A stretch of DNA of 20,863 bases, taken from positions 1 through 20,863 of IMG/VR virus record IMGVR_UViG_3300028388_000361; one strand, 5' to 3'. The position numbers and the translations under genes were made by a program. The notes under the pieces are model-generated. The model was not told the origin of the DNA. It saw only the letters and a list, made by a program, of their open reading frames with translations, and ran no database searches. The stretch comes from a virus. Of this stretch, positions 3,086 to 17,402 are shown one piece after another. How positions within the stretch are numbered: position 1 is the stretch's first letter; the number at the start of each line of letters is the position of its first letter.

Positions 3086-3609
3086 CACTTATACCCGTTC
3101 TTAGTAAGCCACCGTTGGTACTGCAGGTAATCAGGTTTGTCGTTTTGCTGTTCTCGCCACTGCATGTAACCCGGCGGCTCTTTTTTAGGTGTGGCTGCCG
3201 GTTTTTCTTCGGGAGCTTGCGGAGCCGCCGCGGGGTCAACACGCGACAACTCGCGCTCCAACGCCGCGTCAATGTCAGCTACTTGCTCCTGCCGCTCTGG
3301 AGAAACTTGAGAGACAGCTTCGTCAAACAGACCGCCAGTACTGTAGCCCCTAAAGCCTTCGGCAGTTTTTACCGGTTTAGGTACGGACACGGGGTCAAAG
3401 TCAAACCCAAAAGCGTTTGCGCCTTCGATTTGCGCGTTCATGGCACCCACTTGCTGCGGAGTAAGTGCAGCGACAGTAGGTGCACGGTTAGGCTCAGGCT
3501 TTAACATTGCCGCAAGTAACCCGCGCACATATTGCTCGTCGCCCATGCGCTTGAGTTCTTCGTCTACTTTGACCTCAGTAGTCTGCTTGGTCGTCTTGTT
3601 CTTGCCCAT
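3085..3609 (-). CDS. Hypothetical virion-module protein, Pro/Ala-rich
   Basis: I choose ATG 3609 (MGKNKTTKQ) because a GGAGG Shine-Dalgarno lies about 9 nt upstream; an upstream in-frame start at 3627 would lengthen the overlap with the previous gene. The product is 174 aa. It has a Lys/Thr-rich start, a central segment with GFDFDPVSVPKPV and FRGYSTGGLFDEA, an acidic helix (about residues 105-128), an Ala/Pro/Lys linker, and a C-terminal aromatic tail (PPGYMQWREQQ to YLQYQRWLTKNGYK). I do not recognise a family. Location between a GNAT-like protein and an ejection protein suggests a minor virion or assembly protein. Confidence 0.65.
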   Translation of the reverse strand: MGKNKTTKQTTEVKVDEELKRMGDEQYVRGLLAAMLKPEPNRAPTVAALTPQQVGAMNAQIEGANAFGFDFDPVSVPKPVKTAEGFRGYSTGGLFDEAVSQVSPERQEQVADIDAALERELSRVDPAAAPQAPEEKPAATPKKEPPGYMQWREQQNDKPDYLQYQRWLTKNGYK

Positions 3610-4009
3610 CAGGAGCCTCCGGCACAACGGCTAATTCTAGGTACACAGCGGTTTCGCGCCAGCCTTGATTTTTGAGCGGTTTCGCCCACCCCTTGCGACC
3701 AGTCATTGTGAGCCTAGTACAGCCGTGGTTGTACGCAGCTTCGCATAGTTTGTCTTGAAAGTCAAGGATTTCTTTCAGGTCGCCGCCGGCCAGGTATATG
3801 TAGTATTCTCGGCTATGGCGGTGCTGTAATACCTGCGCAATTACTACCGCATTAGGTAAAGGGTAAAAATGATACTCGTTCCGCATCACCCCAACGGTAA
3901 TGTCGTCAAAAGTATCGCCAGTACCAGTGCGCGCTAGCGACGCTTCAATTAGCTCTCGCCGGTCTCGTAGACCGGCGAGAATTGCAATGTATTTGTCTGC
4001 AAGCGTCAT
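3575..4009 (-). CDS. GNAT-like (acetyltransferase-fold) phage protein
   Basis: A 144-aa protein whose ATG overlaps the holin stop (ATGA). Residues 68-125 read like the second half of a GNAT fold: a strand YYIYLAGG, a helix DFQDKLCEAAYNHGC, a strand TRLTMTGRKGW, then KPLKNQGW and TAVYLELAVV. Similar small proteins are common beside internal virion genes in podoviruses, but their function is not established. The usual acetyl-CoA loop (Q/RxxGxG/A) is not evident, so catalytic activity is doubtful. The end overlaps the next gene by 35 nt. A perfect 12-bp hairpin lies inside its first 20 codons (3954-3980). Confidence 0.65.
   Translation of the reverse strand: MTLADKYIAILAGLRDRRELIEASLARTGTGDTFDDITVGVMRNEYHFYPLPNAVVIAQVLQHRHSREYYIYLAGGDLKEILDFQDKLCEAAYNHGCTRLTMTGRKGWAKPLKNQGWRETAVYLELAVVPEAPDGQEQDDQADY
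3954..3980 (-). other. Perfect 12-bp hairpin inside the start of the GNAT-like gene
   Basis: TCTCGCCGGTCT and AGACCGGCGAGA are exact reverse complements separated by only 3 nt. The hairpin spans codons about 10-19 of the 144-aa gene, just after the lysis cassette. No U-tract follows, so termination is unlikely. RNA processing or a translation brake between lysis and ejection genes are possibilities. Confidence 0.7.
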
Positions 4010-4224
4010 CTTTTCTTACGGTCGATCTTTGCGCCGATAGTTGCGCCCAGCGCGATGTTGATAGCCGCGATAAACTCGGTGGACTCAACGTCGACGTTAG
4101 GAATGTCAACTTTAAAGACCACTTCGGCTACCCAGCACGCCAAAGCAAGAGTAACAACGAAGTAGGTTTTGAAGCCCGGCAGAATGTCAAACTTTCGGGC
4201 AAGCTTAGCAAGAAGCGCAATCAT
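4006..4224 (-). CDS. Holin (small two-helix membrane protein)
   Basis: A 72-aa protein with two hydrophobic stretches: about residues 18-37 (FKTYFVVTLALACWVAEVVF) and about 51-65 (FIAAINIALGATIGA). It ends in a basic tail, KIDRKKR. Size, charged C-terminus and direct position next to the endolysin fit a phage holin that opens the inner membrane at lysis. The ATG overlaps the endolysin stop (ATGA), and a GAGGG Shine-Dalgarno lies inside the endolysin's last codons, so the two are translationally coupled. The second segment is short and weakly hydrophobic. The call rests on topology and context. Confidence 0.72.
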   Translation of the reverse strand: MIALLAKLARKFDILPGFKTYFVVTLALACWVAEVVFKVDIPNVDVESTEFIAAINIALGATIGAKIDRKKR

Positions 4225-4787
4225 TGGTCCCTCTGCAGTTCGGTCTTCATCAAAGTCAGGTTGGCTTGCATCGCGTCTACCGCCTTGCGCAGCTTTTCTA
4301 GGTCCGCCCCCTGCGCCGGGGCGCTCGGAAAATCCGGCTGCGGCGGGGTGATCTTATGCGGCGACCTGCGAACGCCAAGAATGCGGTCGATGTTATACTT
4401 CCGCACGTTAACTTGGTTGTTCTGGTTACCGCCTAAGATTTCGACGGTAAATGGGCCGTCGTATTTCTTGTTTAGAAACCCAACGTGCCCGCGCCAGTCG
4501 CTAGGCGCGACACGCCAGAACACGACAATGTCGCCGGGCTCAGCGGCTTCAAGGTCGACTTCTTCACCCCAGCCAAGAAAGGACCGAGCGTCAAGTTTGC
4601 CGGTATGCGCCATCCCTGCGCGCTTGAGCATGGCGTTTACAAACGCCGCGCACCACGCGGTCGCGTCATCCTGCACCCATTCATGCCCTATGTCGTGAAA
4701 GTATTGCACGACCTTCGGGTTAGACCCTTCGGCCCATTCCCATGTGCCGAGGTCTTTCTTCGCTAGCTCGTAAGCTGGGTTAGTCAT
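4221..4787 (-). CDS. Endolysin, TIGR02594-type (NlpC/P60-like peptidoglycan hydrolase)
   Basis: A 188-aa protein. The N-terminal domain (about 1-142) has the pattern of the TIGR02594 phage/bacterial family: TAWCAAFVN with candidate nucleophile Cys46, GDIVVFWR, GHVGF with candidate His101, LGGNQ at 118-122 and a closing YNIDRILGVRR. Such enzymes cut peptide bonds in murein and end the infection with the holin encoded next. There is no signal peptide or membrane segment, so it should be holin-dependent. A Pro-rich linker (about 143-160) leads to a short heptad-like C-terminal helix (161-188), an unusual appendage that could mediate oligomerisation. The ATG follows an 18-bp leader with an AGGTGAG ribosome site. 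Confidence 0.85.
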   Translation of the reverse strand: MTNPAYELAKKDLGTWEWAEGSNPKVVQYFHDIGHEWVQDDATAWCAAFVNAMLKRAGMAHTGKLDARSFLGWGEEVDLEAAEPGDIVVFWRVAPSDWRGHVGFLNKKYDGPFTVEILGGNQNNQVNVRKYNIDRILGVRRSPHKITPPQPDFPSAPAQGADLEKLRKAVDAMQANLTLMKTELQRDQ

Positions 4788-4789
4788 TT

Positions 4790-4807
4790 CTCACCTGTTT
4801 AGGTCAG
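4790..4807 (-). promoter_or_regulatory. Ribosome-binding leader of the endolysin gene
   Basis: On the minus strand this reads CTGACCTAAACAGGTGAG, 2 nt before the endolysin ATG. It is the most divergent of four copies of a CTAACCTAAAGAGGTAAC-like leader that sits in each true intergenic gap of the window. It includes the stop of the preceding gene and the AGGTGA Shine-Dalgarno. Confidence 0.6.
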
Positions 4808-5106
4808 CGAGGATCTTCGTCGTCAACTATACGACGTAAGTCCTTCGAGATTACACTGAGCGTTTCGTCAATGCGGCCCAGCTTGATCGCTTGATCGATG
4901 GCTACCTCTTGCGCGTTTTCCTGCAAAGCCTGCAAGCGTTGAATGTCCCGCTGGTTGACAGCAACTTGCGCAGAAATTTGGGACGCGGTCCAGACACCGA
5001 TGCCAAATTGAAGAGCAATAGTCACAATCAGCGCCGCGGGGATGCCACGGTCTACATGCCAAGTAGGGGTTGGCCGTGTGTTAGGTGTGTTAGGTTCGTA
5101 AGCCAA
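4804..5106 (-). CDS. Membrane-anchored coiled-coil lysis-cassette protein (possible inner-membrane spanin or holin accessory)
   Basis: I place the start at TTG 5106, because AAAGGAG lies just upstream, right after the stop of the heme oxygenase-like gene; the longer frame from TTG 5151 would overlap that gene by 35 nt without a ribosome site. The 100-aa product has a Thr/Pro/Asn-rich N-terminus and one membrane helix at about residues 20-43 (RGIPAALIVTIALQFGIGVW). A long hydrophilic coiled coil follows (NQRDIQRLQALQENAQEVA to LSVISKDLRR). One N-terminal membrane segment plus a coiled coil beside endolysin and holin is the layout of Rz-like inner-membrane spanins, but no overlapping lipoprotein partner is seen, so a holin-accessory role remains possible. 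Confidence 0.65.
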   Translation of the reverse strand: MAYEPNTPNTRPTPTWHVDRGIPAALIVTIALQFGIGVWTASQISAQVAVNQRDIQRLQALQENAQEVAIDQAIKLGRIDETLSVISKDLRRIVDDEDPR

Positions 5107-5116
5107 AGGTTCTCCT

Positions 5117-5653
5117 TTAAGTGCTGTACGGGTTTTGGTTGCACGCCTCAAGATACGCTTGAAAGCACTCGCGCGCAGGTTGGACTAACTCTTTTCTGTC
5201 ACGCAGAGACTTGACAAACGCAGTCACTTTGTTTTCGTCGTAAAAGTAAAAATTAGTCACCGGAAATAGGTGCGCAACCTTTTCTCGAATAATCCTTCCA
5301 CCAGTAGAAGCGCCGCCGATTGTCACATACGCCGCGCCTAGCAGCTTTTCAGTAGTGTTTAACGTGGCGGCAAAATGCCTGGTTGTCTGGTGAAGGTGGA
5401 TCGGGACGCTGTATTTTCTCTGTAGAATAATCATGTCGTCCATTATTTTAGAAGCTGTGCTGAGAGCTTCTGGAGCAGAGTTTGTCAGGCCGAGGCGGCT
5501 GTATATCGGCATTTTCATGCCAAGCCACCACATATACTCACACGCGTTGGGCTCATGAGCGGTCATCACTCTACCTAAGTAGGTAGTATGCTCTACAGCG
5601 TGGTGCAGATGCTTCGTGCCTTCGTGGAGGGCGCCTTTGTACTTATCGGTCAT
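5117..5653 (-). CDS. Heme oxygenase-like protein
   Basis: A 178-aa, mainly helical protein. The N-terminus has TKHLHHAVE, matching the T-x3-H-x2-(L/V)-(D/E) site that holds the proximal heme ligand of heme oxygenases; His17 is the candidate. Residues 104-122, LLGAAYVTIGGASTGGRII, match the kinked distal helix (bacterial LGALYVLEGSxLGG; mammalian AYTRYLGDLSGGQ). Spacing fits the mammalian/cyanobacterial form, with Ala115 where a catalytically important Asp usually stands. Length is close to bacterial enzymes, about 190-200 aa. Known members split heme into biliverdin, CO and Fe2+. The ATG overlaps the tail-spike stop (ATGA), and the lysis gene follows after 10 nt, so it is a late gene. Activity is not shown; it could be a heme-binding or structural derivative. 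Confidence 0.75.
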   Translation of the reverse strand: MTDKYKGALHEGTKHLHHAVEHTTYLGRVMTAHEPNACEYMWWLGMKMPIYSRLGLTNSAPEALSTASKIMDDMIILQRKYSVPIHLHQTTRHFAATLNTTEKLLGAAYVTIGGASTGGRIIREKVAHLFPVTNFYFYDENKVTAFVKSLRDRKELVQPARECFQAYLEACNQNPYST

Positions 5654-7404
5654 CTTAGCCAGTTCACCTTAAATTTTTTGGTCACAGCCATACGATTTTC
5701 TACGTAAAGTGAGCTACCAACAACAGAGAGCGAAAACTTACCGTCGGTACCGGTAGTCCCACTTAACACGCCTGTCTCCATGGCAATGTCGGTGTCGTTA
5801 AACATCGCCGTTATAGTTTCGGCAGTTGTGTCGTAAGCACACAACGCCGTGATTAGGTTGCTGGAAGTCGCATCGTCCACAATTTCCAACACGAATGTGC
5901 CGTAAGTTGCAGGAATAGCTAGCGCCCTTGCGTCATCGTCGACAATCGTTCCCTGCGTCAGAGTTGGGGCTGGGTTTACCGTCTCACCGTTTACGATTAG
6001 AGTGTCAGTTTCGACTGTCGAAAAGTCGCCTGTGCCGGTGGCCGTGCCGGCAAACGTGCCGGTAGCACCGCTAAGAGAGCCGCTAAACGCGCCCGAAATG
6101 GTGGAGTCCCCGTCAACAGTGATGTTGCCTCCCACAGTGACGTTACCAGAAAAATAACCATCCCTAAAGCGGTTAGACGGCCCTCCGAGAGAAACAACGT
6201 TGTCAGTTTCCGGCCGGAAGTAAGAAGCTGTAAACGTGAGAAGGTCTGTCCCGGCTGCGCTTGAAAGCGGGCCTGTATGCTTGGGAATTTGGCTGACGCG
6301 GTCATCAAAGCAAATACCGCCGCCGGTAAACGAGTTGGGCACGATATTAATACCGCCAAGCACTTCGACGTTTTCAATGTGCGTGATGCCGTTTTCAGTC
6401 GTAAAAATGTCGTTGTCGCTATCTGCGCCCAGCGTGCGGCGGTAATTCTGTGTATGTACGCCGGGAAACAAGTCTTCAAAGCCGCCGTAAATACCGAGGA
6501 TGCGCAGATCGCCGTTGTTGTAGATGGTGTAGTCGGTGCATTCGATAGCGCTGCATGAGCCGATAATGCCGGTACCACGGTTGACTAAACCTGTTTCGTC
6601 GGCGTAATCGAACGTTCCTCGGTAACCCTCAAAATGGCCCGCATTGTGAATGTTGACGTCAAACCCATTCAGACCCCAAGGGCGTTCAGCGATGGGGGCA
6701 CCGTTAACTACGGTAGCAGAATGTGCCGACGCCCAAGCGTTACCGCCTACGTATAAGCCGGCAGACTTGTACCCGGTGCCGGGCACGCCAGCTTTGTTCG
6801 ACACAAAATTAGTGTTAATCTGCGGGCTGCGTGCAGTGCCGTAGTTGGCGATAAACGCCTTGAGCTTAAAGTTTTCATTTGAAACTTCGGTAAGCGCCTG
6901 CTCGTCAACAAAAACAACCGGGTCTTCCGAAGTAAGGTTTACAAAAGAAAGGTCTACGTAGTTGTGCAGTTGTTCCCTAACTAGGTGGCCACTCAGGATG
7001 AGCACTTCGACAGTGAGCCGCTTTGTGACTTCGTCCTGCCATTTTTCGAGGTACGCGGCTTTGTAGCGTGAAGCAAACTCAAGCGCGGCGCCGACAGTTT
7101 TATACTGAGCTTCGGGGTCAGTTTCGTGCACCGTAAAGGTTACGCTGAAGTCAATGACCGTAATGAACGCGACGTCATTGCCCTCAGCGCTAGGGTCACC
7201 TGGTATAGACACAACCGGGATAATGCCCCAAAAAGCTTCTCTGCTACCGTCGGCAGACTCAGGGAACGCCCACAGCGGCTGCCCAATGGGCGACATGATA
7301 AGCGAACCCGCGTTATTCTGTGGGTCAGGATAGTCGTCCTGAGACGCATAGCGCAGAGCGCGCTGAGAAGTCTTATATCGTCCGCTAATGCGCTTTACAC
7401 TCAC
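5650..7404 (-). CDS. Tail spike / tail fibre protein with beta-helix-like body
   Basis: A 584-aa protein from a GTG start at 7404 that overlaps the previous stop (GTGA), with AAGGAG 8 nt upstream. Residues about 1-190 form a mixed N-terminal region that may attach to the tail. Residues about 245-400 are rich in short Gly/Asn-turn strands (GIIGSCSAIECTDYTIYNNG, NGITHIENVEVLGGINIV), as in parallel beta-helices. A fibre-type motif follows at 401-421 (DNVVSLGGPSNRFRDGYFSGN), then Thr/Gly/Ser-rich repeats. The last about 100 residues resemble the C-terminus of the large fibre at 10678-13122, ending GVLSGTTGTD, LYVENR and NWLR. No polysaccharide-cutting site can be named. It likely binds the host surface. 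Confidence 0.75.
   Translation of the reverse strand: MSVKRISGRYKTSQRALRYASQDDYPDPQNNAGSLIMSPIGQPLWAFPESADGSREAFWGIIPVVSIPGDPSAEGNDVAFITVIDFSVTFTVHETDPEAQYKTVGAALEFASRYKAAYLEKWQDEVTKRLTVEVLILSGHLVREQLHNYVDLSFVNLTSEDPVVFVDEQALTEVSNENFKLKAFIANYGTARSPQINTNFVSNKAGVPGTGYKSAGLYVGGNAWASAHSATVVNGAPIAERPWGLNGFDVNIHNAGHFEGYRGTFDYADETGLVNRGTGIIGSCSAIECTDYTIYNNGDLRILGIYGGFEDLFPGVHTQNYRRTLGADSDNDIFTTENGITHIENVEVLGGINIVPNSFTGGGICFDDRVSQIPKHTGPLSSAAGTDLLTFTASYFRPETDNVVSLGGPSNRFRDGYFSGNVTVGGNITVDGDSTISGAFSGSLSGATGTFAGTATGTGDFSTVETDTLIVNGETVNPAPTLTQGTIVDDDARALAIPATYGTFVLEIVDDATSSNLITALCAYDTTAETITAMFNDTDIAMETGVLSGTTGTDGKFSLSVVGSSLYVENRMAVTKKFKVNWLR
5653..5772 (-). other. Shared C-terminal tail-protein domain, copy 1
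   Basis: Residues 545-584 of the spike. The pattern GVL-x-GTTGTD, LS, LYVENR and W-x-R matches the last 44 residues of the larger fibre (copy 2 at 10690-10812). Weaker similarity extends about 55 residues upstream (DDDARALAIPATYGTFVL versus DDAASGRPAPAHGCFAL). Confidence 0.7.
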
Positions 7405-7868
7405 GGGTCAACTCCTTCACCGATTTCGTCGTCATGCTGGCCCGCCTCTCGCTCGTAGCACATGATGAAAGCGTCAACAGCGTTTTCGGTATCAGCCCAC
7501 ACTTGAAGCGCGTCTCCCGTGCCGCTTGCAGGATCACGCTTTACAAGCGCGCTACCTTGCAGTGGAACCAAGGCTGCGTCTTTAGCGTCAATGTGGACTT
7601 CTGGCGCAAACATGTAATCCGTGCCGGCCTCGTCCAAAATGCGCACTTGAACAGACACCGGATTATCTGTCTTGTTGCTGAGAATAAGCGGCGTGCCGAA
7701 GGTGATGATGCCGGGAGCAATCGTGCGTGTAGGAACATCGACGTCCCTAGGCGGCACCGAAAACTCAGACGCTGCCACCACAGACTGCCAAGCAAGATGG
7801 TCGATGTTTTTCTTCCGCACTGGAATTTCTTTTTCCGGGTGCGGCGTGCGTGTATAGATGCGGGACAT
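7401..7868 (-). CDS. Hypothetical structural protein of the tail-fibre cluster
   Basis: A 155-aa protein starting at ATG 7868, which shares its A with the upstream TAA stop (TAATG). After a basic N-terminus (MSRIYTRTPHPEKEIPVRKK) the rest alternates short strands and turns: TIAPGIITFGTPLILSNKTDNPVSVQVRI-type strands at about 48-78, then FAPEVHIDAKDAALVPLQGSALV at about 86-109. This looks like a single beta-sandwich. It lies between two large fibre/spike genes, so an accessory or adaptor protein at the tail tip is a reasonable inference. I do not recognise a named family. Confidence 0.65.
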   Translation of the reverse strand: MSRIYTRTPHPEKEIPVRKKNIDHLAWQSVVAASEFSVPPRDVDVPTRTIAPGIITFGTPLILSNKTDNPVSVQVRILDEAGTDYMFAPEVHIDAKDAALVPLQGSALVKRDPASGTGDALQVWADTENAVDAFIMCYEREAGQHDDEIGEGVDP

Positions 7869-9994
7869 TAGAAGCTCCCTCCAACAATAGCTGCTTGTCG
7901 AGCGGCAGAACGTATAGACGCTTGCAGGCCGATGCCAACAAGTCGCCTAGTTTTAGCGTCATACTTGAGACCAATCTGCCCGTTGTCGCCGGCAAAGATC
8001 ACGTCAGCATTGTCGCCCTGACCTGAATAGGTAACGTTGCCGCCGTCTGAAAGCACGATGGCTTGCTCGACGCTGCGCTCTTCACCGCTGCCGCCAAACT
8101 CAGGAGGTAAGCCTTCCGGGCTCACGCCAGCTAACGGGTATGTCCACTGGTGGCTAATCGCTGTGATCTGCGACCTGTAAAGACGAGATAACGTCGGGTC
8201 ACTGTCATAGTTGTCAAGCGTGTAGTTGACTGCGTCAACGCCGTCTTGAATGTTTGTTTGCTCGCCGGCAGTGAGCGTAACTACGCCGGGTAGCTGGTCG
8301 TGGATTTCTTGGAACCACCATTTGAAGTCGGCAACAAGTGCGGGGTCAAAGATCAACAGCCCGTTATCAAAAAACCCGTAAACAAACCGCCGGTAGTAAT
8401 CAGAGCTACCAGATTGAAACGCATATGCTATTGTTTTGAGGAAGATTTTTGCGTCCCGTTTTGTAAACGCCTCTTGATCCGCAGTGTAAGTCCCGGCGCC
8501 CCCCGCAGGTGTAAACGACGCCCAAATATCGTCTACGAAGGTGTCCATGTCCATCGCAAGAATGGCGTCGGCCGCCGTAGTGTTTTTAATTTGCGTACCG
8601 GCTACCGTTTTAGGTACGATTAAGGCTCTAGACCCTTGGCTCCAGAAGATATAGTCGCCAAACTGCGAAGCACAAGCCGAAAGAAGCACAGTGCCGCCAT
8701 CGAGCGCCATGTAGTGCACTCGCGCCCACATAGTGATGGCGTTAACTGCGTGCACAAATGCTCTACCACGGGCAACGTAGCCGATGCCGTTAAAGCTAAT
8801 TGGTGTTGCGCCCCAAGCCAGAATGTTGGGGAACAGCGAGAAGCGGCTAATTATGTTACCGTCAGCGAGGATAACCCCGCCGCCGTGACCGATTTCGGGG
8901 TTACCGTTCGCACGGTCCAGCGCGGGCATAATGTATGACGGCCGCGCGCCATGGTACATGACGCAATTATGCAGGTAAGGAGGCCGAAAGATGACAGCGT
9001 CAGGCCTGAACGTGGCTAGAAAGCCTTTGGTTGGGTTAGCGAGGTCATCAATTTGAAAGCCTTCGGCGCCGCCGCCTGCGGCGGCTATGCTTTCCAGCTT
9101 ACACCCACTGCCTAGCAGAAAACAGTTTGAAATTTCATTGCCTGCTGTTGGCCGGAACACAACCGACCTTGCGTCAGTAGCGCCGCGAATTGTTACCCCA
9201 TCAGGTACGGAGTATTCTTGGCCGTAGTACGTACCAGCGTAGACCAAGATACAAGGCGGCGTACCGCCTGCGTCAATCATGGCTTGCGCTTGCGTAAGCG
9301 CCTGCGTCATAGTAGCGACAGGGTATTCGATGCTACGGCCAGAGTTAGCGTCGTCGCCGCCTTCGGACAGAAAGATTGTGTTGGCAACAGGAGGAGCGAG
9401 CGGCGCGGTAATTGTGCCTAGCTCAAGCCACGCGTCATCTTGCTCAAGATACAACGTGAGCGTACCGTCCCCGTTGATAAGCCCCCACGCAGCATTGTCG
9501 GGAACAGTAGCAGGATCAGGCCGATTAGCGATATCTGCGTCGGCGCCGTACAGGTCGAGCCCTAAGTAGTTGCCGGGCGCACCTTGCGGTCCAGTAGCGC
9601 CTGTTGCACCAGTGGGGCCTTGCGGGCCTTGGGGGCCGGGAGGAAATGAACCTTTTGCAAGTAGCTCAGGGTTCTGGTTAGCGTCAAAGCACATAACCGT
9701 GTCAGCCCGGTTCTGGACCGGGAATGACGGGATTGGCGCCAGCGAGCGGTTAATCCTTACTGTTCGTCGGTGCATCTGGTACGGAACAGCGTGAAGGTTT
9801 GACCGCGGGTTACCGAATAAGGTAAGAGGCCCGGTCATAGTGTCGCCGGCGCGCTCAACATACCGAGAGTCGAGCGGATTAGAGGGCAGTTTGTGCACCC
9901 ACTTCACGCCGTCCCAGCGCCAAGCGCGGTCGCCATGAGTGTGGACAGTGCCAACTGTCGGGTTTGCCGGAAAGTCGATAACGCCAAGGTTCAT
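7868..9994 (-). CDS. Tail fibre protein with collagen-like segment and pectate-lyase-like beta-helix
   Basis: I choose ATG 9994, which overlaps the preceding stop (TGATG) with AAGGAC upstream, over the longer frame from 10039; 708 aa. The N-terminal about 35 residues (NPTVGTVHTHGDRAWRWDGVKWVH) resemble domains common at the start of phage fibres. Residues about 119-142 are collagen-like Gly-X-Y repeats (GPQGPQGPTGATGATGPQG). After about residue 200, IFLSEGGDDANSGRSIEYP and ILVYAGTYYGQEYSVPDGVTI look like the start of a pectate-lyase-type right-handed beta-helix, the usual body of capsule- or LPS-binding spikes. The C-terminal half is less recognisable. No catalytic residues can be assigned. 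Confidence 0.75.
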   Translation of the reverse strand: MNLGVIDFPANPTVGTVHTHGDRAWRWDGVKWVHKLPSNPLDSRYVERAGDTMTGPLTLFGNPRSNLHAVPYQMHRRTVRINRSLAPIPSFPVQNRADTVMCFDANQNPELLAKGSFPPGPQGPQGPTGATGATGPQGAPGNYLGLDLYGADADIANRPDPATVPDNAAWGLINGDGTLTLYLEQDDAWLELGTITAPLAPPVANTIFLSEGGDDANSGRSIEYPVATMTQALTQAQAMIDAGGTPPCILVYAGTYYGQEYSVPDGVTIRGATDARSVVFRPTAGNEISNCFLLGSGCKLESIAAAGGGAEGFQIDDLANPTKGFLATFRPDAVIFRPPYLHNCVMYHGARPSYIMPALDRANGNPEIGHGGGVILADGNIISRFSLFPNILAWGATPISFNGIGYVARGRAFVHAVNAITMWARVHYMALDGGTVLLSACASQFGDYIFWSQGSRALIVPKTVAGTQIKNTTAADAILAMDMDTFVDDIWASFTPAGGAGTYTADQEAFTKRDAKIFLKTIAYAFQSGSSDYYRRFVYGFFDNGLLIFDPALVADFKWWFQEIHDQLPGVVTLTAGEQTNIQDGVDAVNYTLDNYDSDPTLSRLYRSQITAISHQWTYPLAGVSPEGLPPEFGGSGEERSVEQAIVLSDGGNVTYSGQGDNADVIFAGDNGQIGLKYDAKTRRLVGIGLQASIRSAARQAAIVGGSF
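9572..9643 (-). repeat. Collagen-like Gly-X-Y repeat within tail fibre
   Basis: About eight consecutive Gly-X-Y triplets are encoded (PGPQGPQGPTGATGATGPQG). Such segments form trimeric rods in phage fibres and act as hinges or spacers between attachment and receptor-binding domains. Confidence 0.85.
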
Positions 9995-10188
9995 CAAACT
10001 AAGTCCTTCGTTACTTCGACCCAAAAGTTGCCGTTGCACGACGGGTAATACACGAACAGACTAGCCCTGCCGTCCTCGTTTTCACAAAACCACAAGTCCA
10101 TAGGACAAGGATTAGTAGGCGGCGCAACGCCGATATGGGCGTAGCCGCCGGCAACCGACGTTTGTTGAATGGGCGGGCAGTTGGACAT
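9994..10188 (-). CDS. Small Cys-containing fibre-like protein (64 aa)
   Basis: A 64-aa protein with ATG at 10188, preceded by AGAGGTAAC. It is the first gene after the promoter at 10211-10239. The core APPTNPCPMDLWFCENEDGR and FVYYPSCNGNFWVEV follows a pattern seen in tail-fibre domains of other phages, roughly PPxxPxxGDLWxxxxDGxxYVYYxDGxxxxWVxV. Here it is a free-standing mini-protein. Four cysteines (4, 28, 35, 51) are striking in such a short protein and could form disulfides or bind metal. It overlaps the following fibre gene by one base, so the two are coupled and may assemble together. Confidence 0.7.
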   Translation of the reverse strand: MSNCPPIQQTSVAGGYAHIGVAPPTNPCPMDLWFCENEDGRASLFVYYPSCNGNFWVEVTKDLV

Positions 10189-10192
10189 AGCG

Positions 10193-10210
10193 GTTACCTC
10201 TTTAGGTTAC
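10193..10210 (-). promoter_or_regulatory. Ribosome-binding leader of the 64-aa protein
   Basis: The minus strand reads GTAACCTAAAGAGGTAAC, with AGAGGT about 9 nt before the ATG. It is one of four related leaders. Because it lies downstream of the promoter -10 box, it would form the short 5' untranslated region. Confidence 0.65.
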
Positions 10211-10239
10211 ACTATACAGAACTTGGCGCGACAAGTCAA
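10211..10239 (-). promoter_or_regulatory. Sigma70-type promoter with near-palindrome in the spacer
   Basis: On the minus strand a -35 box TTGACT (10234-10239) and a -10 box TATAGT (10211-10216) are separated by exactly 17 nt. Start of transcription is expected near 10204. The spacer contains a near-perfect 16-bp dyad (10221-10236, 14 of 16 positions symmetric) with a CGCG centre and ACTTG/CAAGT arms. It lies in one of the few gene-free gaps, directly before the 64-aa gene. It would drive fibre, spike, heme oxygenase-like, lysis and ejection genes. Confidence 0.7.
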
Positions 10240-10240
10240 C

Positions 10241-10681
10241 CTAAAATTGTGCGGCAAAAGCAGCTACCTTGTCAGGGACAGTAGGCCAATTTGAGTCGTC
10301 AGTGGGGTCGGCATTACTATGATAAATAAGTCTCCAACGTCTACGCATTTCCATCACCCACTCCACACCGGCGCGGTACAAGACGCGGTCGTCGGCAGTA
10401 AGCATTCCTGCGGCTGCCGACGCCATCATATTAAGTTGCCGTTTGCCGCTAACAGGGCCAAGCACTTCTTCGATCCGGCGCTGACATTCGGCCTTGCACT
10501 TCTCTTGCCGCTGCATGGCGGCCCACGCCGCACGCTGCTGCACGGAGGGGCCGTTCTCGATCTCCGCGACGACCGCCAATGCGTCGGCCTCGTTGTCCCG
10601 ACCAGCAGGTAGAATGACCTCTCGCCGCCTGCCGTTGCGCTCGACCAACCAGACGCCATTGGAAATTCGTTCGACCGTCAT
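10241..10681 (-). CDS. Possible tail-fibre assembly chaperone
   Basis: A 146-aa protein. I choose ATG 10681, which overlaps the fibre stop (ATGA); a longer frame from 10699 lacks support. The N-terminus (MTVERISNGVWLVERNGRRREVI) looks like a small beta unit. A charged helix follows (AAWAAMQRQEKCKAECQRRIEEVLG), then a Met/Ala-rich helix and a Trp/Arg-rich region ending NWPTVPDKVAAFAAQF. Small helical proteins directly after a fibre gene are often fibre chaperones; this is positional inference. Codon use changes inside the gene: the first half (10681 to about 10440) has GC-rich third positions like the fibre, and the second half has the usage of the rest of the phage. It may therefore be a hybrid. 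Confidence 0.6.
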   Translation of the reverse strand: MTVERISNGVWLVERNGRRREVILPAGRDNEADALAVVAEIENGPSVQQRAAWAAMQRQEKCKAECQRRIEEVLGPVSGKRQLNMMASAAAGMLTADDRVLYRAGVEWVMEMRRRWRLIYHSNADPTDDSNWPTVPDKVAAFAAQF

Positions 10682-13122
10682 ATCAGCCCCCGGAACCATT
10701 GAATTCGCACGTCGGCCGCCCCGCCGAGCCGATTTTCGACATAGAGGTCGAGGTCCGAATGCGGACTGAGTGTCAGGCGAATGTCTGTCCCGGTCGTGCC
10801 GGTCAGCACCCCGGTCGTCGTTTCCACAAGCGTGCCTGACCCAATCACGTCAATGGCAGGCGACGGCGTCGTGTGGAACCGGATAAACGCCCAGGAACGA
10901 TCGTGCGGGTAGCCCTGCCCGATGGTTGGGCTATTCGTCTGCACCAGTGCAAAGCACCCGTGCGCGGGGGCAGGTCGACCGGATGCCGCATCGTCGGCTA
11001 ACGTGAATTCGTCGATGTAGTCACCGACGTCCTCGAAGCTGGAGGCGAGGGCGATTTCCGACCACGAAATTGCCCCGGTGGCGCCGTTCCGATTGCCGAG
11101 CCACGCCTGGCCGACGGTGTCGTAACTGCCGCTCTGACGCCACGCGATCAGCGAAGTGTATTCGCTGCCGCCACGGGCCACGATACAGGAACCGTTGAAC
11201 GCCGTTGTGAAAGGGCCACCCGTCGCCGCCGTCCCATTGAAGCGGTAGAAACCGGGATGCAGTTCGGCTGTGAAGTCGGTGATTTCGGGGGGAGTCGTTA
11301 CACCTAATCCGGTAGGATTGCCATTTACAGCGAAACCGCCTGCCGCGTCGACCTCCCCTTCGCTGACGACGTCCCCATTCGCCTCCACGAGGAAATTCAT
11401 TTCCGTGCCGCGATAGCCGACATAAAGATAACCACCGTCGCCAACGGTACTGTCTCGCTGGACGTAGACCGGGCCGTTCTGGAAGCTGAGGTGAATACCC
11501 TTACTGCTCGCCAGCCCAAGGTCGGCGAATTCCAAATTCGGGCTGCGCAATGCACCCGCTTCAAAAACGACCTGATCGCCCGCATCGTCCGTGTCGATCT
11601 TGTCGACAAATGCCGTGGTCGCGTGGAGGTTGCCCGCAAAATGGGCGTCCTTGAATTTGTAGGTAACGGACCCGAGGTCAACGTCATTTGTGGTGCCGGG
11701 CCTGAACACCCCGTCGGTCAGCAAAAGCTGGATGCTGTTTTCAATCCGCCACTGATGCTGGACCGCGCCAGAGGCGGCGCCGGCAATGTAGTAGTCGTGC
11801 GAGACAAATACTCCGGCGCCATCCCTTGTCTGAAACGACAGGTTCCCGCCGCTATTTTGGAAAGTGAATTGGTAGGAGGCGACGTCCGTATCCGTCATAT
11901 AGATGAACGGGTTGCTTGACCTCACCTTGATGCTGTCTGTGATCAGCGGGCCAACTTCTGCGCTGCCAGACAGATACAGGTCCTTGAATTTGTAGGTAAC
12001 GGACCCGAGGTCAACGTCATTCGTGGTGCCGGGCCGAATGACTCCGTCCTCAATGCGAAATTGTGCAGAGCCTTCGATACTCCATGCGTGCGCCGTCGCC
12101 CCGGCGGCCCCGCGGGACATGATGTAGTCATGCGCGACAAACGACCCGGCGCTGTTCCGGGTCTGCATGTAGAAGTCCCCGCCGGACAGGCCGACAACCT
12201 CCTGCCGGTGGGTGGTGGCAACGTCAGTCTCGCTCAGGGTGTACGTTGCCGCTGCCCCCTCAAGGAACAAGCCTCCGACGTTCGCCGTCCCGCCCAGATT
12301 GAGCGCCCCGGCGAAATAGGCATCCTTGAATTCGTAGGTGACTGACCCAAGATCGACGTCATTCGTGGTGCCGGGCCGAATGACTCCGTCCTCAATGCGA
12401 AACTGTGTGCTTCCCGCGATCTGCCACGAATGCGACGTCGCCCCGGAGGCCCCCCGAACCATCCCGTAATCCTGCGCGACGAACACCCCCGAATTGTTGC
12501 GGGTCTGCATCAGGAAATTGCCGCCGGACATGACCAGAAATTCACGGCTGTGCGTGGACGGCGCATCGGTTTCGTTGAAATAGAGATATGGGCCGGTACC
12601 GGAGATTGTTATTCCGCCAGAGATAGTGGTCGTTCCAGCGTTAAGCGTACTAGAAAAATTAGCTGCTACAGCGCTAATGTCGCCTGACAAGGTTGCGTTA
12701 ACAGCGCTAACATCACCTAATAAGGTAGCGTTGTCAGCAGCTAAATCGCCTGTTAAAGTGGCGTTTATAGCGCTTAGGTCGCCTGATAAAGTAGCGTTTA
12801 CAGCGTCAATATTGCCGGTAGCGGTAAGATTAGGCAAAACTAGGTCGCCGGTTAACGTGCCACCAGTTAAGTCTAACTTATCTTGCGGGTTAATTTGCAG
12901 CCATGTATTGTCGGCCGACCAGTCAAGATTTTTTGTGTTAACGTCAAAAAGAATGACGCCATTTTCAGACGAGCCTGCCTTTTCACCCGGCACTTTATAG
13001 GCGGGTTTTACAGGCTGACGTTTAGCTGGGCTAGTGTCCTCAGAAGACAGCACGCGGTATAAATCTTGCAGCCATCTATGGACTTTACCGTCAGCGGGCG
13101 GTGGACCAAGGTAACGCCTCAT
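10678..13122 (-). CDS. Large repeat-built tail fibre protein
   Basis: An 814-aa protein; the ATG overlaps the nozzle stop (ATGA). Layout: N-terminal attachment region (about 1-85); an 11-residue repeat series (87-152, consensus NATLSGDLSAV); three homologous units of about 95 residues (178-274, 293-388, 406-499), each ending in PGTTNDVDLGSVTYKFKD and YFAG; a linker; a region with HPGFYRFNGTAATGG and WRQSGSYDTVGQAWLGNRNG (about 620-690), typical of fibre receptor ends; and a C-terminal domain shared with the spike at 5650-7404. From about codon 175 onward codons become GC-rich, unlike the first part, except for a native-looking island near 11281-11335. It probably determines host range. Confidence 0.8.
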   Translation of the reverse strand: MRRYLGPPPADGKVHRWLQDLYRVLSSEDTSPAKRQPVKPAYKVPGEKAGSSENGVILFDVNTKNLDWSADNTWLQINPQDKLDLTGGTLTGDLVLPNLTATGNIDAVNATLSGDLSAINATLTGDLAADNATLLGDVSAVNATLSGDISAVAANFSSTLNAGTTTISGGITISGTGPYLYFNETDAPSTHSREFLVMSGGNFLMQTRNNSGVFVAQDYGMVRGASGATSHSWQIAGSTQFRIEDGVIRPGTTNDVDLGSVTYEFKDAYFAGALNLGGTANVGGLFLEGAAATYTLSETDVATTHRQEVVGLSGGDFYMQTRNSAGSFVAHDYIMSRGAAGATAHAWSIEGSAQFRIEDGVIRPGTTNDVDLGSVTYKFKDLYLSGSAEVGPLITDSIKVRSSNPFIYMTDTDVASYQFTFQNSGGNLSFQTRDGAGVFVSHDYYIAGAASGAVQHQWRIENSIQLLLTDGVFRPGTTNDVDLGSVTYKFKDAHFAGNLHATTAFVDKIDTDDAGDQVVFEAGALRSPNLEFADLGLASSKGIHLSFQNGPVYVQRDSTVGDGGYLYVGYRGTEMNFLVEANGDVVSEGEVDAAGGFAVNGNPTGLGVTTPPEITDFTAELHPGFYRFNGTAATGGPFTTAFNGSCIVARGGSEYTSLIAWRQSGSYDTVGQAWLGNRNGATGAISWSEIALASSFEDVGDYIDEFTLADDAASGRPAPAHGCFALVQTNSPTIGQGYPHDRSWAFIRFHTTPSPAIDVIGSGTLVETTTGVLTGTTGTDIRLTLSPHSDLDLYVENRLGGAADVRIQWFRGLI
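10690..10812 (-). other. Shared C-terminal tail-protein domain, copy 2
   Basis: Residues 771-811 of the fibre: GVLTGTTGTD, LTLSPHSDLDLYVENR and IQWFR. It matches copy 1 (5653-5772) in order and spacing but uses GC-rich synonymous codons, so the two are old homologues in different sequence backgrounds and not a recent duplication. Confidence 0.7.
11626..11907 (-). repeat. Tail-fibre repeat unit 3
   Basis: Encodes residues 406-499 (from FIYMTDTD to KFKDAHFAGN). It shares a stretch of about 40 identical bases (near 11648-11688) with unit 2 (near 11981-12021), but is the most divergent unit in its first half. Confidence 0.8.
11959..12246 (-). repeat. Tail-fibre repeat unit 2
   Basis: Encodes residues 293-388 (from TYTLSETD to KFKDLYLSGS). 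It shares about 48 identical bases with unit 1 (12013-12060 against 12355-12402) and about 40 with unit 3. Confidence 0.82.
12301..12591 (-). repeat. Tail-fibre repeat unit 1
   Basis: Encodes residues 178-274 (from PYLYFNETD to EFKDAYFAGA). Its right edge at about 12591-12600 coincides with the change from AT-richer to GC-rich codon usage within the gene. Confidence 0.82.
12667..12864 (-). repeat. 33-nt tandem repeats encoding 11-residue fibre shaft units
   Basis: Six units of 11 residues (87-152): GGTLTGDLVLP, NLTATGNIDAV, NATLSGDLSAI, NATLTGDLAAD, NATLLGDVSAV, NATLSGDISAV. The DNA copies are degenerate but keep a 33-nt period. Such units probably form a triple-beta or similar shaft. The series lies directly beside the composition breakpoint. 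Confidence 0.85.
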
Positions 13123-14624
13123 CTGCCAGCACCTATGGTGTGGTTAAGCTCGATACGGTTGCCAATAACTGCGTAAGAAATAGGTTGGCCTTCGTACCTA
13201 AACCGCAGATGCCGGCCTTGCGCACCAGTGGTAGAAATTGGGTACGTATACGCGTACGGCCCAAACGTCGCGTATTGTTTAGAATGAAACTGCCTACCTA
13301 AAACGGTAAGCTTGTAGGCGCCCGTATCTTCTGCGTCCGGGTAAACTTCCTTTAAAGCCATGCCCTTAGCGCCGTATCCGTGGCTAAGCGGACCAGTCTC
13401 CAAGTACCAGCTAGAAACTAACGTGTTTTTGAGTTCGTGCCGATATACAACACCGTCAAGATTGACATAAAGCGGTGTAGTAAACGCGCCTGCGTCAAAG
13501 CCGCATGTGCGGCGTAGCCGGCCAAAGTACCACAAATCAGCGACGTAGTTCCAAAGCACGTAACTATCTACGTCGGACCCGTTAGCAGATTGAAAAAACC
13601 ACCAAATTTCAGTGTTTTCTGTGTTGTGGGTAACCCACATTTTTGACAAATTAGCGCGGTCAATTTCATCAAACAACCAAGTGCTGACAGAGCACGGCAG
13701 CGGCCGCACTGTGCCGTCAAACAACCAAAAGGTATCAAGCCCCATCCACACTGCAAAATTGCCAGTGTAGCACACAGCATACTTGCTAATAGGCGGGCAA
13801 TCAGTGGCAAGCGTGTTAAACGAGTAGACAAACGGTAGCCCGGTAAACTGTCCAATATGCGCGCCGTTACCGAGAACAAGCACGTCGTCTTGTACAACGC
13901 CAACGCTCTGCAATCCAAGAGAGTCTTCGATAGAGTAAAACCCGGCAAGTTTAGTTTCGTCGGCAAAGTCCCAAAACGAATAGTCTTCGCGTCCGCTCCA
14001 CCTGATTAGGTTGGGGTCGTTAGTAGAACCGATGCCAAGAACAATGCGTTGCGGCGTCGTAACAAAATCGACAAAATCTGTAGGCGCATTGCTGACTACC
14101 GTCGCCTCAGCAGCAATTAAGTCCCAAGAATAGAGAGAATTACCCACGAACAGCGCAAGTAATTCTTCGCCCCACGAGGCAAAACGCCACCGCTGGCGGT
14201 CAATAACTGTCTGTGTCAGCGCAGTGCGTGGGGTGCCAAACGTACCTCGCCCAAAGTTGCCGTAGCCAAACCCATATGGGGAAGGATCAGCAGGTGCAGC
14301 AGGTAACGAGCTAGGAGTAATGTCGGTAATAGTGCCGCCAGCAGATAGATGGACAAGACCCGAGTTTGAACCAAAAACACCGTTTGCTTGGCCTGAAATA
14401 GAGCGCCAAGAAAAAGCGTCTCTGAATATCTCGCTCTCCGGTGTAGACGTCAGAGCGTTGATAGCGTCCATGTTCTGATCGCGATAAACGTCCCATCCGC
14501 CGATAGGCCGGTGCGCGCCTTTACTCCAGCGCACACGGTCACAATCATAGAAACGGTCTGTAGCGTCAGTTAACGTACCGTTTCTATAGATGCCCGGCGG
14601 TATGACACGCTGCTCTTGCGGCAT
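13119..14624 (-). CDS. Tail nozzle / packaged-DNA stabilisation protein (P22 gp10-like beta-propeller)
   Basis: A 501-aa protein with ATG at 14624 sharing a base with the previous stop (TAATG). The N-terminus (IPPGIYRNGTLTDATDRFYDCDRVRW, then IGGWDVYRD) and repeated Trp/Gly beta strands (RWRFASWGEELLALFVGN, NLIRWSGREDYSFWDFAD, VWMGLDTFWLFDG, EIWWFFQSANG, SYVLWNYVADLWYFGRL) look like the propeller-type nozzle proteins that close the podovirus tail tube and retain DNA. Length is close to the P22 gp10 class. Position between the adaptor/collar genes and the fibre fits. I recognise the class by repeat style and context, without a diagnostic catalytic site. Confidence 0.72.
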   Translation of the reverse strand: MPQEQRVIPPGIYRNGTLTDATDRFYDCDRVRWSKGAHRPIGGWDVYRDQNMDAINALTSTPESEIFRDAFSWRSISGQANGVFGSNSGLVHLSAGGTITDITPSSLPAAPADPSPYGFGYGNFGRGTFGTPRTALTQTVIDRQRWRFASWGEELLALFVGNSLYSWDLIAAEATVVSNAPTDFVDFVTTPQRIVLGIGSTNDPNLIRWSGREDYSFWDFADETKLAGFYSIEDSLGLQSVGVVQDDVLVLGNGAHIGQFTGLPFVYSFNTLATDCPPISKYAVCYTGNFAVWMGLDTFWLFDGTVRPLPCSVSTWLFDEIDRANLSKMWVTHNTENTEIWWFFQSANGSDVDSYVLWNYVADLWYFGRLRRTCGFDAGAFTTPLYVNLDGVVYRHELKNTLVSSWYLETGPLSHGYGAKGMALKEVYPDAEDTGAYKLTVLGRQFHSKQYATFGPYAYTYPISTTGAQGRHLRFRYEGQPISYAVIGNRIELNHTIGAGR

Positions 14625-15127
14625 TATGCAACACGCTCCCAGATATACACCGCTGTATAGGGCGGAATGACGCGGACAGACTGGTCAGGCCCGGCAACAC
14701 TTGCTTGGCTATCTGGCGGGACAGGTGTGTCTACAGCAACGTCTGTAAGCGAGACTTCATTGACGCCGCCAGTGTCACGCGCGCTTAACACCTTAGTTTC
14801 TCCCTCGATGGTGTCGCCAGCCCCGATTATGAACGTACCCATTGAGGTAAGCTGCCACTGAGTGTCAGGAAATCGGTCGTTAGGGTCCACATCGTAGCTG
14901 AGGTAAATCGAGCCGACCGGAAACAGTGCATTAACGACAATGGCAAGGATGGCAGCTTCTGTAGTCTTGTCGGCAATTTGGTCAGACAAATCCTTCAAGT
15001 GACCGTCAAGTGCCTGCCAGTTTTGCACGATATAGTCGCCCCAACGATCAGCGTCAGCACCCACCGTGGGTAGCTCAAACTGATAGTGGTCAGTAACTGT
15101 CGGTTCAGGATCAGACGGATCAGGCAT
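14624..15127 (-). CDS. Small tail protein with collar-type domain
   Basis: A 167-aa protein. After an acidic N-terminus it has a helical part (WGDYIVQNWQALDGHLKDLSDQI). A domain with FPVGSIYLSYDVDPNDRFPDTQW, then GTFIIGAGD, DTGGVNEVSL and a final PPYTAVYIWERVA follows. This matches the phage tail-collar pattern (FPVGSIY, a Trp, G-x-FI-x-G, a Gly-rich turn, PPY-x-x-x-Y-x-W-x-R). In other phages the domain ends long fibres; here it is a short separate protein encoded between adaptor and nozzle. It could be a connector or a short side fibre. Overlaps with both neighbours are of the TAATG type. Confidence 0.72.
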   Translation of the reverse strand: MPDPSDPEPTVTDHYQFELPTVGADADRWGDYIVQNWQALDGHLKDLSDQIADKTTEAAILAIVVNALFPVGSIYLSYDVDPNDRFPDTQWQLTSMGTFIIGAGDTIEGETKVLSARDTGGVNEVSLTDVAVDTPVPPDSQASVAGPDQSVRVIPPYTAVYIWERVA

Positions 15128-15780: not shown

Positions 15781-16127
15781 TTCAGGTCCGCCTTGTATTT
15801 CGTGTACTCTTGCTGAATTTTCTCTACTGCGTGGTCTGCAAACTCTTTCGTCCCGATCTTAAGCCCGCTTTTAGCGGCTAGGTCAGCAGCAGTGATCGGG
15901 TCAAGCGAGCCGATATAGCGTTGCCCTGCTTTGCCGCCTTTGCGGCCGTTAGCGCGGATCATTTCTGACCGCGCCTTCACTGTGTCGATTACAGGGTCAG
16001 CGTTTATTTTGCGGACAATGAAAAACTTGCCGTCTTCAAAACGCTCAACGACCGTGTAGCCAAGACGGTCTATTTTCTCTACTTCAAAGGCTAGTCGTGC
16101 TTCCTCCTGGCTTAGCGGCAGGTTCAT
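15777..16127 (-). CDS. Hypothetical head-completion-position protein
   Basis: The open frame reaches 16301, but its first 58 residues overlap the neighbouring gene and look like shadow sequence. I choose ATG 16127 (MNLPLSQEEARLAFEVEKIDRLGY), giving 116 aa and a 44-nt overlap with the gene at 16084-16308. The product has a compact start (RLGYTVVERFEDGKFFIVRKI) and a basic segment (RANGRKGGKAGQRYIG), ending in a Lys-rich helix (EKIQQEYTKYKADLK). I recognise no family. It lies between a small capsid-adjacent gene and the adaptor, so a head-tail joining or minor head role is possible. The exact start is uncertain because AGGA is directly adjacent to the ATG. Confidence 0.55.
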   Translation of the reverse strand: MNLPLSQEEARLAFEVEKIDRLGYTVVERFEDGKFFIVRKINADPVIDTVKARSEMIRANGRKGGKAGQRYIGSLDPITAADLAAKSGLKIGTKEFADHAVEKIQQEYTKYKADLK

Positions 16128-16308
16128 CCTGAGTTTTGCGTCGATCTGCTTTAAAAGCTTTTGCAGCTTCTTCGGGGAGTTCGTGAAGCTTTCCAAGCTT
16201 TTCGGCGCGCTTAAATTCGGCATCGGTAAACTCCGAGACGCGGTTGACGAGAATGCGCTCACCATGTCGGTCGCGCACAGACCCTTTGACGACAACAGCA
16301 ACTTTCAT
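16084..16308 (-). CDS. Small protein downstream of the capsid gene (DUF7210-like architecture)
   Basis: A 74-aa protein with AGAGGT about 8 nt before the ATG. It begins MKVAVVVKGSVRDRHGERI, then LVNRVSEFTDAEFKRAEKLGKLHEL, and ends in a Lys/Pro-rich tail. A short first strand, a loop, and a helix with a KLG turn resemble small phage proteins often found after capsid genes (DUF7210-like); this is a weak family impression. It is the first gene after the capsid hairpin, so its expression may be set by that hairpin. Confidence 0.6.
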   Translation of the reverse strand: MKVAVVVKGSVRDRHGERILVNRVSEFTDAEFKRAEKLGKLHELPEEAAKAFKADRRKTQDEPAAKPGGSTTSL

Positions 16309-16310
16309 TT

Positions 16311-16328
16311 GTTACCTCTTTGGGTTAG
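16311..16328 (-). promoter_or_regulatory. Ribosome-binding leader after the capsid hairpin
   Basis: The minus strand reads CTAACCCAAAGAGGTAAC, 2 nt before the ATG at 16308. It is near-identical to the leader at 10193-10210 and lies immediately 3' of the hairpin at 16330-16357. Confidence 0.65.
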
Positions 16329-16329
16329 C

Positions 16330-16357
16330 GGCTCCCCGGCGGCAGAACCGGGGAGCC
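16330..16357 (-). terminator. Strong hairpin after the major capsid gene (attenuator or partial terminator)
   Basis: A perfect 10-bp stem, GGCTCCCCGG with CCGGGGAGCC, encloses an 8-nt loop in the 83-nt gap after the capsid stop. No U-tract follows on the minus-strand transcript (CGCTAACCC comes next), so it is not a textbook intrinsic terminator. A leaky attenuator, an RNase processing site or 3'-end protection of the abundant capsid mRNA fit better. Confidence 0.65.
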
Positions 16358-16391
16358 TAGCGGCGGCCGGGCAGGAAGCGCCGCGTTCGTG

Positions 16392-17402
16392 TTACGCCGA
16401 CAGCCCGTTAGTGTCGCGATAGATGCCGTGGGCAGCTTCGTTGTCGACTTGCAGACCGTACTCCGCCCAAATCAGATGCTTCATGGTGTGGCCAGTCTCG
16501 GCAAGCGGCTTACGCTGCACCGGGTCGAGCCACGCCATCCGGGCGTATTCGGGGTCAAGCACCAGCACTGACCAGCTAGTGTTGGTAGGCGCGTTCAACG
16601 CGGGCAGGAACCTCGTCGGGGCAATCGTGAGGCGCCCAAAGTCAGAGTCGTAAAAGTCGATGGCGTTCACCACTTCCTTGTCGACTGCCGGCTGGTAGCT
16701 CGTTGCGATACCCGTGAACGTCTTTGTGATCGCACGTTTGTTTGCGCCATGAACAAGAACAAGCGAAGGATTGGCACCAGAAGTCCAGCATTGCTCGATC
16801 AGGTCATTGAACGTGTCTTCACTGATTGCGCTAAGAGTACCAGCAACAGCCGCAGCATCAGGATACCCGTTAGTCGTACCCGAATAGGTTGGGTCCACAG
16901 CAGTACCGCCACCGTCCACGACGTTGGTAGTGAGCCACGCTTGAAGGCCGGCAGTTACCCGCGCGGTGGCACCTGTGGCGGCGCCGGGATCGGCGGCGAC
17001 GTTTGCAAGCAGCATCATTTCCATATCGCGCTTAAGCTCGCGAAGTTTGAGGCTGACCTGCGACATGAGCCGCTGCACGTTTTCCGCGGCAGCGTCGGTA
17101 GCCTGAGACGTATGAGACACAGCCACAACTTTGTCGCTGATCTGAGTGTAGTTCTTCCACCGAACGCCGAGAGTGGCGGGATCAAGGCTGGGATCATCCT
17201 CGCCCTCCATGACCCGGTTATCCATCTGCGGCGACGCAAGCGCCATCGTGGGCCATTCAAATTCCGGGTTCGACACACTACGCGAACCGAGAACTTGCTG
17301 AAACGGAGTTTCTTCCGGCGAAATCATGGAGTACGCTTCTTGCAGGTCTTCGCGCAGAAGCGTGTTGTCGTAGGACTCTACAGTGTTGGCTGCGGTAGCC
17401 AT
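16392..17402 (-). CDS. Major capsid protein (HK97-fold, SU10 / DUF5309-like)
   Basis: A 336-aa protein with ATG at 17402 preceded by GAGGTAA. The N-terminal arm (ESYDNTLLREDLQEAYSMISPEETPFQQVLG) followed by FEWPTMALASPQMDNRVMEGED, NYTQISDKVVAVSHTSQA and a long helix (KLRELKRDMEMMLL) follows the DUF5309 / SU10-like capsid pattern. The C-terminal half (VLVHGANKRAITKTFTG, VVNAIDFYDSDFGRLTIAP, VLVLDPEYARMAWL, ETGHTMKHLIWAEYGLQVDNEAAHG) matches the expected sheet and the outer axial part of the fold. Position after the scaffold agrees. GC-rich, strongly biased codons here fit a highly expressed gene. The true assembly state is not visible. Confidence 0.88.
   Translation of the reverse strand: MATAANTVESYDNTLLREDLQEAYSMISPEETPFQQVLGSRSVSNPEFEWPTMALASPQMDNRVMEGEDDPSLDPATLGVRWKNYTQISDKVVAVSHTSQATDAAAENVQRLMSQVSLKLRELKRDMEMMLLANVAADPGAATGATARVTAGLQAWLTTNVVDGGGTAVDPTYSGTTNGYPDAAAVAGTLSAISEDTFNDLIEQCWTSGANPSLVLVHGANKRAITKTFTGIATSYQPAVDKEVVNAIDFYDSDFGRLTIAPTRFLPALNAPTNTSWSVLVLDPEYARMAWLDPVQRKPLAETGHTMKHLIWAEYGLQVDNEAAHGIYRDTNGLSA

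Follow-up and report, generated by a model that had tools for sequence, protein, structure and literature searches.

Domain mosaicism of phage receptor-binding proteins is well documented (Smug et al., 2023, PMC10684548), and even distant Alteromonas phages share modules that consist of a tail fibre and its cognate chaperone (PMC10579305). In published tail-fibre assembly proteins a beta N-terminal part, which is variable and binds the fibre, is joined to a helical part that is conserved (PMC9608196); such a division would be expected if the fibre-facing half alone had travelled.

Here we describe a fibre gene in IMGVR_UViG_3300028388_000361, the entire record of an uncultured virus of bacteria, 20,863 bases long and referred to as the window. 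All window genes treated here are encoded on the minus strand. The outer three quarters of the fibre gene (10678-13122, 814 aa) were most likely swapped in from another phage. We hold with good confidence that the gene is a graft in which a resident anchor carries a distal body that came, in frame, from a phage of GC-richer dialect; the import probably extends into the downstream gene.

As in the mosaicism surveyed by Smug et al., 2023, a conserved N-terminal anchor is followed by a distal part common to unrelated phages. In the window, however, the join is still visible as a break in codon dialect that probably reaches the next gene. As in the Alteromonas phages, fibre and neighbouring gene appear to travel together, but here only part of the neighbour appears to have moved, its role as a chaperone is putative and a donor was not found. 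The small gene shares with those of Mu TFA and Pam3 gp25 (PMC9608196) its place directly after the fibre, and a model of its product suggests a similar layout, a beta N-terminal part followed by a helical part; the product has no sequence or profile match, however, and the confidence of the model is too low for a fold claim. The podovirus Kuravirus SU10 (PMC9509320) resembles the window in the families of its portal and major capsid protein and in having a tail-tip gene after the nozzle gene. In contrast, a profile of the window anchor matched neither SU10 gp18 nor other SU10 fibre proteins, and SU10 gp17 did not match 13119-14624 in a sequence test. The fibre was also considered as the gp18 tail needle, a candidate that was rejected (anchor HMM against gp18, E 0.82).

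Results

The window encodes an SU10-type portal (PF23899, E 2e-111) and an SU10-type major capsid protein (PF17236, E 4e-76), the two proteins by which it is counted as SU10-like. The virion protein gene upstream of the fibre takes its name, stabilisation/nozzle-like, from the annotations of relatives. Upstream of it, 14624-15127 encodes a 167-aa protein at a place where the relatives L024, L025 and L030 carry genes of 239-1196 aa, and at its N-terminus this protein matches the L024 counterpart (E 1e-6). The small gene after the fibre (10241-10699) more likely begins with the ATG at 10681 and thus shares an ATGA overlap (10678-10681) with the end of the fibre gene. Coordinates of the features are collected in Table 1.

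Table 1. Features of the fibre locus in the window (positions of the record; LLR, body over native dialect).
Feature	Position	Strand	Evidence
Stabilisation/nozzle-like virion protein, upstream syntenic marker	13119..14624	-	phrog_3287, E 2e-50; 35-38% identity to L024, L025, L030
Resident N-terminal anchor, fibre residues 1-78	12889..13122	-	iterated HMM of relatives; 50/53 loci
Linker of 11-residue repeats, residues 79-172	12607..12888	-	33-nt direct repeats at 12656-12812; GC3 0.38; not common to relatives
Foreign-dialect fibre body, residues 173-814	10681..12606	-	codon surprise above all 633 same-size blocks; edge 12606; no match in 83 added loci
Three ~84-residue repeat modules	12323-12574, 11981-12232, 11648-11899 (span 11648..12574)	-	motif PGTTNDVDLGS-YxFKDxxFxG; repeat family D1
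C-terminal fibre domain, residues 707-811	10690..11004	-	paralogous to end of fibre 5650-7404
Downstream gene, first half, foreign dialect	10465..10681	-	LLR +6.6; p 0.0005 under native codons
Downstream gene, second half, native dialect, predicted helical	10241..10464	-	LLR -7.4; 0/2000 body-dialect simulations as low
~6.7 kb absent here in relatives	4010..10677	-	downstream gene, two more fibres, small genes, CHAP lysin, small membrane-type genes

A preliminary description of this DNA had proposed a composition-mosaic segment at 10440-12600 in which TTA, GCT, ACT and GTA become scarce, and both observations hold. GC3s conditioned on the amino acid is 0.717 across these positions (707 codons, z 8.0) and 0.548 elsewhere in the window, so that GC3 is not flat relative to the rest. 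The best-fitting GC3 segment of any position and length lies at 10472-12537 with z 8.27, compared to a 95th percentile of 4.12 and a maximum of 4.78 for the best z in 500 synonymous shuffles. None of 614 same-size blocks from elsewhere in the window, which carry the real patchiness of the genome, matched the codon surprise of the segment. Per 1000 codons, TTA, GCT, ACT and GTA occur 3, 4, 6 and 4 times inside and 8, 29-33, 22 and 9-13 times outside. From outside to segment, Phe TTC rises from 0.25 to 0.70 and Gln CAG from 0.44 to 0.81, and GCT falls from 0.29 to 0.04. Asn AAT rises from 0.22 to 0.55, against the GC trend, and the codon choice of Asp, Glu, His and Tyr is unmoved. The shift is one of codon dialect, more than of GC alone. 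The native-like island formerly seen at 11281-11335 has a score of -1.0; when the codons of the segment are permuted among themselves, a 19-codon window at least as native-like turns up in 73% of cases. It is a product of chance, so of the "one or two imports" once suggested, an import from a GC-richer phage stands and a second one is unsupported.

A likelihood over all synonymous codons placed the upstream edge at 12606 (95% 12537-12633), inside the fibre gene and near the first repeat module of the body. By codon-dialect likelihood the downstream edge lies at about 10465 (95% 10339-10543); as had been claimed, it falls inside the small gene and not at a gene boundary. The z value alone proves little, because z 8.2 or above was reached by 16 of 42 other phage loci in a scan of crudely tiled contigs. 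Breaks of this size within one open frame are rare: of 269 long ORFs, only 3 have a higher statistic than the fibre (7.7). Two of these are fibre-like genes; the third, a portal frame, has an N-terminal extension that, judged from its sequence, may be miscalled. Strong intragenic breaks in the comparison set fall mostly in fibre-like genes. Breaks stronger than that of the window fibre are seen in the fibre-like genes L071 9759-12636 (GC3 0.35 to 0.75 at codon 611) and L072 17226-19578 (0.62 to 0.18 at codon 679). Within the window, the second-highest GC3 stretch (16104-16730, z 5.25) lies around the C-terminal end of the major capsid gene.

Translational selection or a local mutation bias might have raised GC3 in a highly expressed resident gene, as the raised GC3 of the major capsid gene (0.64-0.66) and the segments of similar z in other phage contigs would allow. 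However, the shift is larger than that of the major capsid gene, it switches inside two genes instead of at gene ends, it moves Asn towards AAT, and it divides the anchor from the body of one protein, which are translated equally often. We give this explanation hardly any weight.

The fibre body consists of three repeat modules, an intermediate region and a C-terminal domain. Members of repeat family D1 show 62-75% DNA identity to the reference copy, and related modules occur in phage contigs from IMG/VR (L002-L019) as well as in Synechococcus, Pelagibacter and Puniceispirillum phages. The C-terminal domain aligns with the last part of fibre 5650-7404 (33% identity over 106 columns, E 3e-8) and has relatives in 26 viral loci; in the ones checked it sits close to the end of the open frame, on contigs of 32-65% GC.

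These homologues bear on the idea that GC-rich codons are intrinsic to the module type, or were spread by tandem duplication of one GC-rich unit, without any import. The three copies do share ancestry and composition and are not independent, but the non-repeat part at 10700-11640 is shifted as much as the repeats (z 4.6; surprise 0.085 compared to 0.092 for the repeats). Moreover, homologous domains elsewhere follow the GC3 of their own contig without excess (r 0.96, mean difference -0.05, sd 0.06 over 40 domain matches), whereas the window segment exceeds its own genome by +0.17. Finally, the paralogous domain in fibre 5650-7404 is written in native codons: where the two copies have the same residue, its GC3 is 0.46, compared to 0.74 for the segment. 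This possibility is largely refuted and deserves very little credence.

The same paralogue, located in the native part of the record, speaks against a metagenome assembly chimera of two phages. Such a chimera would further need two joins, both in frame and one of them near a module edge. The window is the record of an uncultured virus, 20,863 bases in length, and a second assembly of the same phage was not found, which leaves some room for this reading; we nevertheless judge it very improbable.

As for the source of the graft, 72 of 124 other contigs explain the codons of the segment better than the window's own usage does. For the rest of the window its own usage fits best (-1.113, in-sample, compared to -1.144 for the best of the 124 contigs). 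Several contigs of 58-70% GC fit the segment dialect about equally well, and the donor can therefore only be described as a GC-richer phage. Neither a donor nor a near-identical sequence was found in any collection searched: a DNA-level search gave nothing but a collagen match of 64 bases in another part of the query, the fibre was not found in bacterial genomes, and neither its N-terminal 100 nor its C-terminal 250 residues, searched alone, matched viral contigs. A structure model of the fibre C-terminus was discarded (pLDDT 37).

Comparison with relatives at the same locus identified the part of the fibre that is resident. An iterated HMM from the relatives' same-locus genes matches the window fibre (E 3e-9), and the anchor is carried by the next open frame after the stabilisation/nozzle-like homologue in 50 of 53 non-redundant loci. 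The offset to the upstream gene is -4 or -1 in nearly all anchor-bearing relatives, and in the window the two genes share a 4-base ATGA overlap at 13119-13122. Complete anchor genes of relatives encode 85-484 aa (median 228 aa), compared to 814 aa in the window. Similarity to the relatives is lost around residue 78 (about 12889). The codon switch follows roughly 280 bases later; composition and homology therefore place the edge differently. The similarity break that the preliminary description had looked for thus exists, though not at the codon switch. In the neighbouring gene, identity to the nearest relatives is only 35-38%, which leaves the event undatable and blurs the homology edge.

Beyond the anchor, the window shares nothing of this gene with those relatives, and neither the fibre body nor the downstream gene had a homologue at E 1e-5 in 83 added loci, mostly relatives. 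The fibre thus combines an N-terminal part that is homologous and syntenic in relatives, within SU10-like synteny, with a distal part that matches unrelated phages and not the relatives, and the break between dialects lies inside the gene, as in a mosaic fibre. In this phage group the anchor would serve to dock the gene's product to the tail.

The codon use of the anchor is ordinary for the window (GC3 0.46). Contrary to what had been thought, the N-terminal part of the fibre as a whole is not like the rest of the phage: its GC3s is 0.41 against 0.55 for the genome (z -4.6), and the low value sits in the linker (0.38) more than in the anchor. The codon surprise of the linker is in the top 1.7% of same-size blocks. 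That the stretch between anchor and body has an odd composition of its own is a point against the graft.

At the other end of the segment, a changepoint test inside the downstream gene gave p 0.0005, a switch that rests on 134 codons. The gene is probably a compositional hybrid, and to this extent the hybrid product proposed earlier is supported. An imported body whose import stops at the fibre stop or covers the whole downstream gene, the inner switch being sampling noise, is a possible but less likely arrangement. Each half of the small gene is ordinary on its own among same-size blocks (0.15 and 0.21), the range of the edge spans 200 bases, and relatives lack the downstream gene altogether; yet the changepoint inside the gene and the fit of its halves to opposite dialects (p 0.0005 and under 0.0005) argue against such limits. 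The reading frame was kept, as had been stated. The earlier statement that the ATGA overlap was kept holds for the one at 13119-13122, which is ancestral; the one at 10678-10681 lies inside the import and probably arrived with it.

The designation of the downstream product as a chaperone was not borne out. No significant Pfam or PHROG match, no phage or plasmid relative and no PDB relative below E 0.03 was obtained, and a protein search of phages, plasmids and viral contigs yielded no relatives of the gene. An IUPAC family pattern searched in genome contigs gave at most three unrelated contigs, and no paralogy was found with the small genes after the other two fibres. A single-sequence model predicts a beta meander at residues 2-23 (pLDDT about 90) followed by less certain helices, with residue 72, at which the dialect changes, at the end of a predicted helix. 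The mean pLDDT is 64 and the model is good only for residues 1-40; Foldseek with this low-confidence model returned no match below E 0.29. The gene does lie directly downstream of the fibre, joined to it by the ATGA overlap, as a gene for a tail-fibre assembly protein would. The resemblance of its product to such proteins is one of position and of a modelled beta-then-helix layout only, and a function as fibre-folding chaperone is putative.

The non-ancestral DNA does not end where the segment had been delimited: the block that differs from the relatives extends well beyond 10440, to about 4010. A homologue of 3575-4009 stands directly after the anchor gene in 38 of 40 relatives. The two further fibres and the lysis genes of the 6.7-kb block use the native dialect and come after the anchor gene, whereas fibre or lysis genes of L024, L025 and L030 precede the stabilisation/nozzle-like gene. 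From this gene order the block 4010-10677 seems rearranged. Two relatives carry other, apparently fibre-like genes between the anchor gene and the 3575-4009 homologue (L121 5588-8390 and L175 5881-8756), and with these other insertions at the same place the site looks like a recurrent insertion site, or hotspot.

Discussion

The dialect shift with its two edges, the conservation of the anchor alone and the homology of the distal modules to unrelated phages make this a case of ordinary fibre mosaicism, a clear but familiar kind of event. We propose that the resident anchor of about 78 residues was kept and ties the gene product to the tail, and that recombination between phages replaced or added the distal fibre with the frame preserved. 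The import probably extended across the ATGA overlap to take in the first half of the small gene, which would thereby have become a hybrid. The beta N-terminal part of the downstream protein would then travel with the fibre, the helical part would stay resident, and the benefit would be an exchange of receptor specificity.

A bolder version, to which we give a rather low probability, is that the fibre tip was exchanged as a unit with just the fibre-facing half of an as yet undescribed kind of fibre chaperone. The crossover would then lie inside the chaperone, separating a beta module specific to the fibre from a helical module that is resident, and the anchor gene, normally that of a short tail-tip protein, would thereby have become a full fibre gene.

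The comparison of homologous modules with the GC3 of their own contig is a usable control, and the comparison with relatives supplied what composition alone could not. At this locus codon dialect still marks both ends of a receptor-binding swap, which makes it a clean case. For this uncultured phage group it separates the constant part of the fibre, the anchor of about 78 residues after the stabilisation/nozzle-like gene, from the part that is exchanged.
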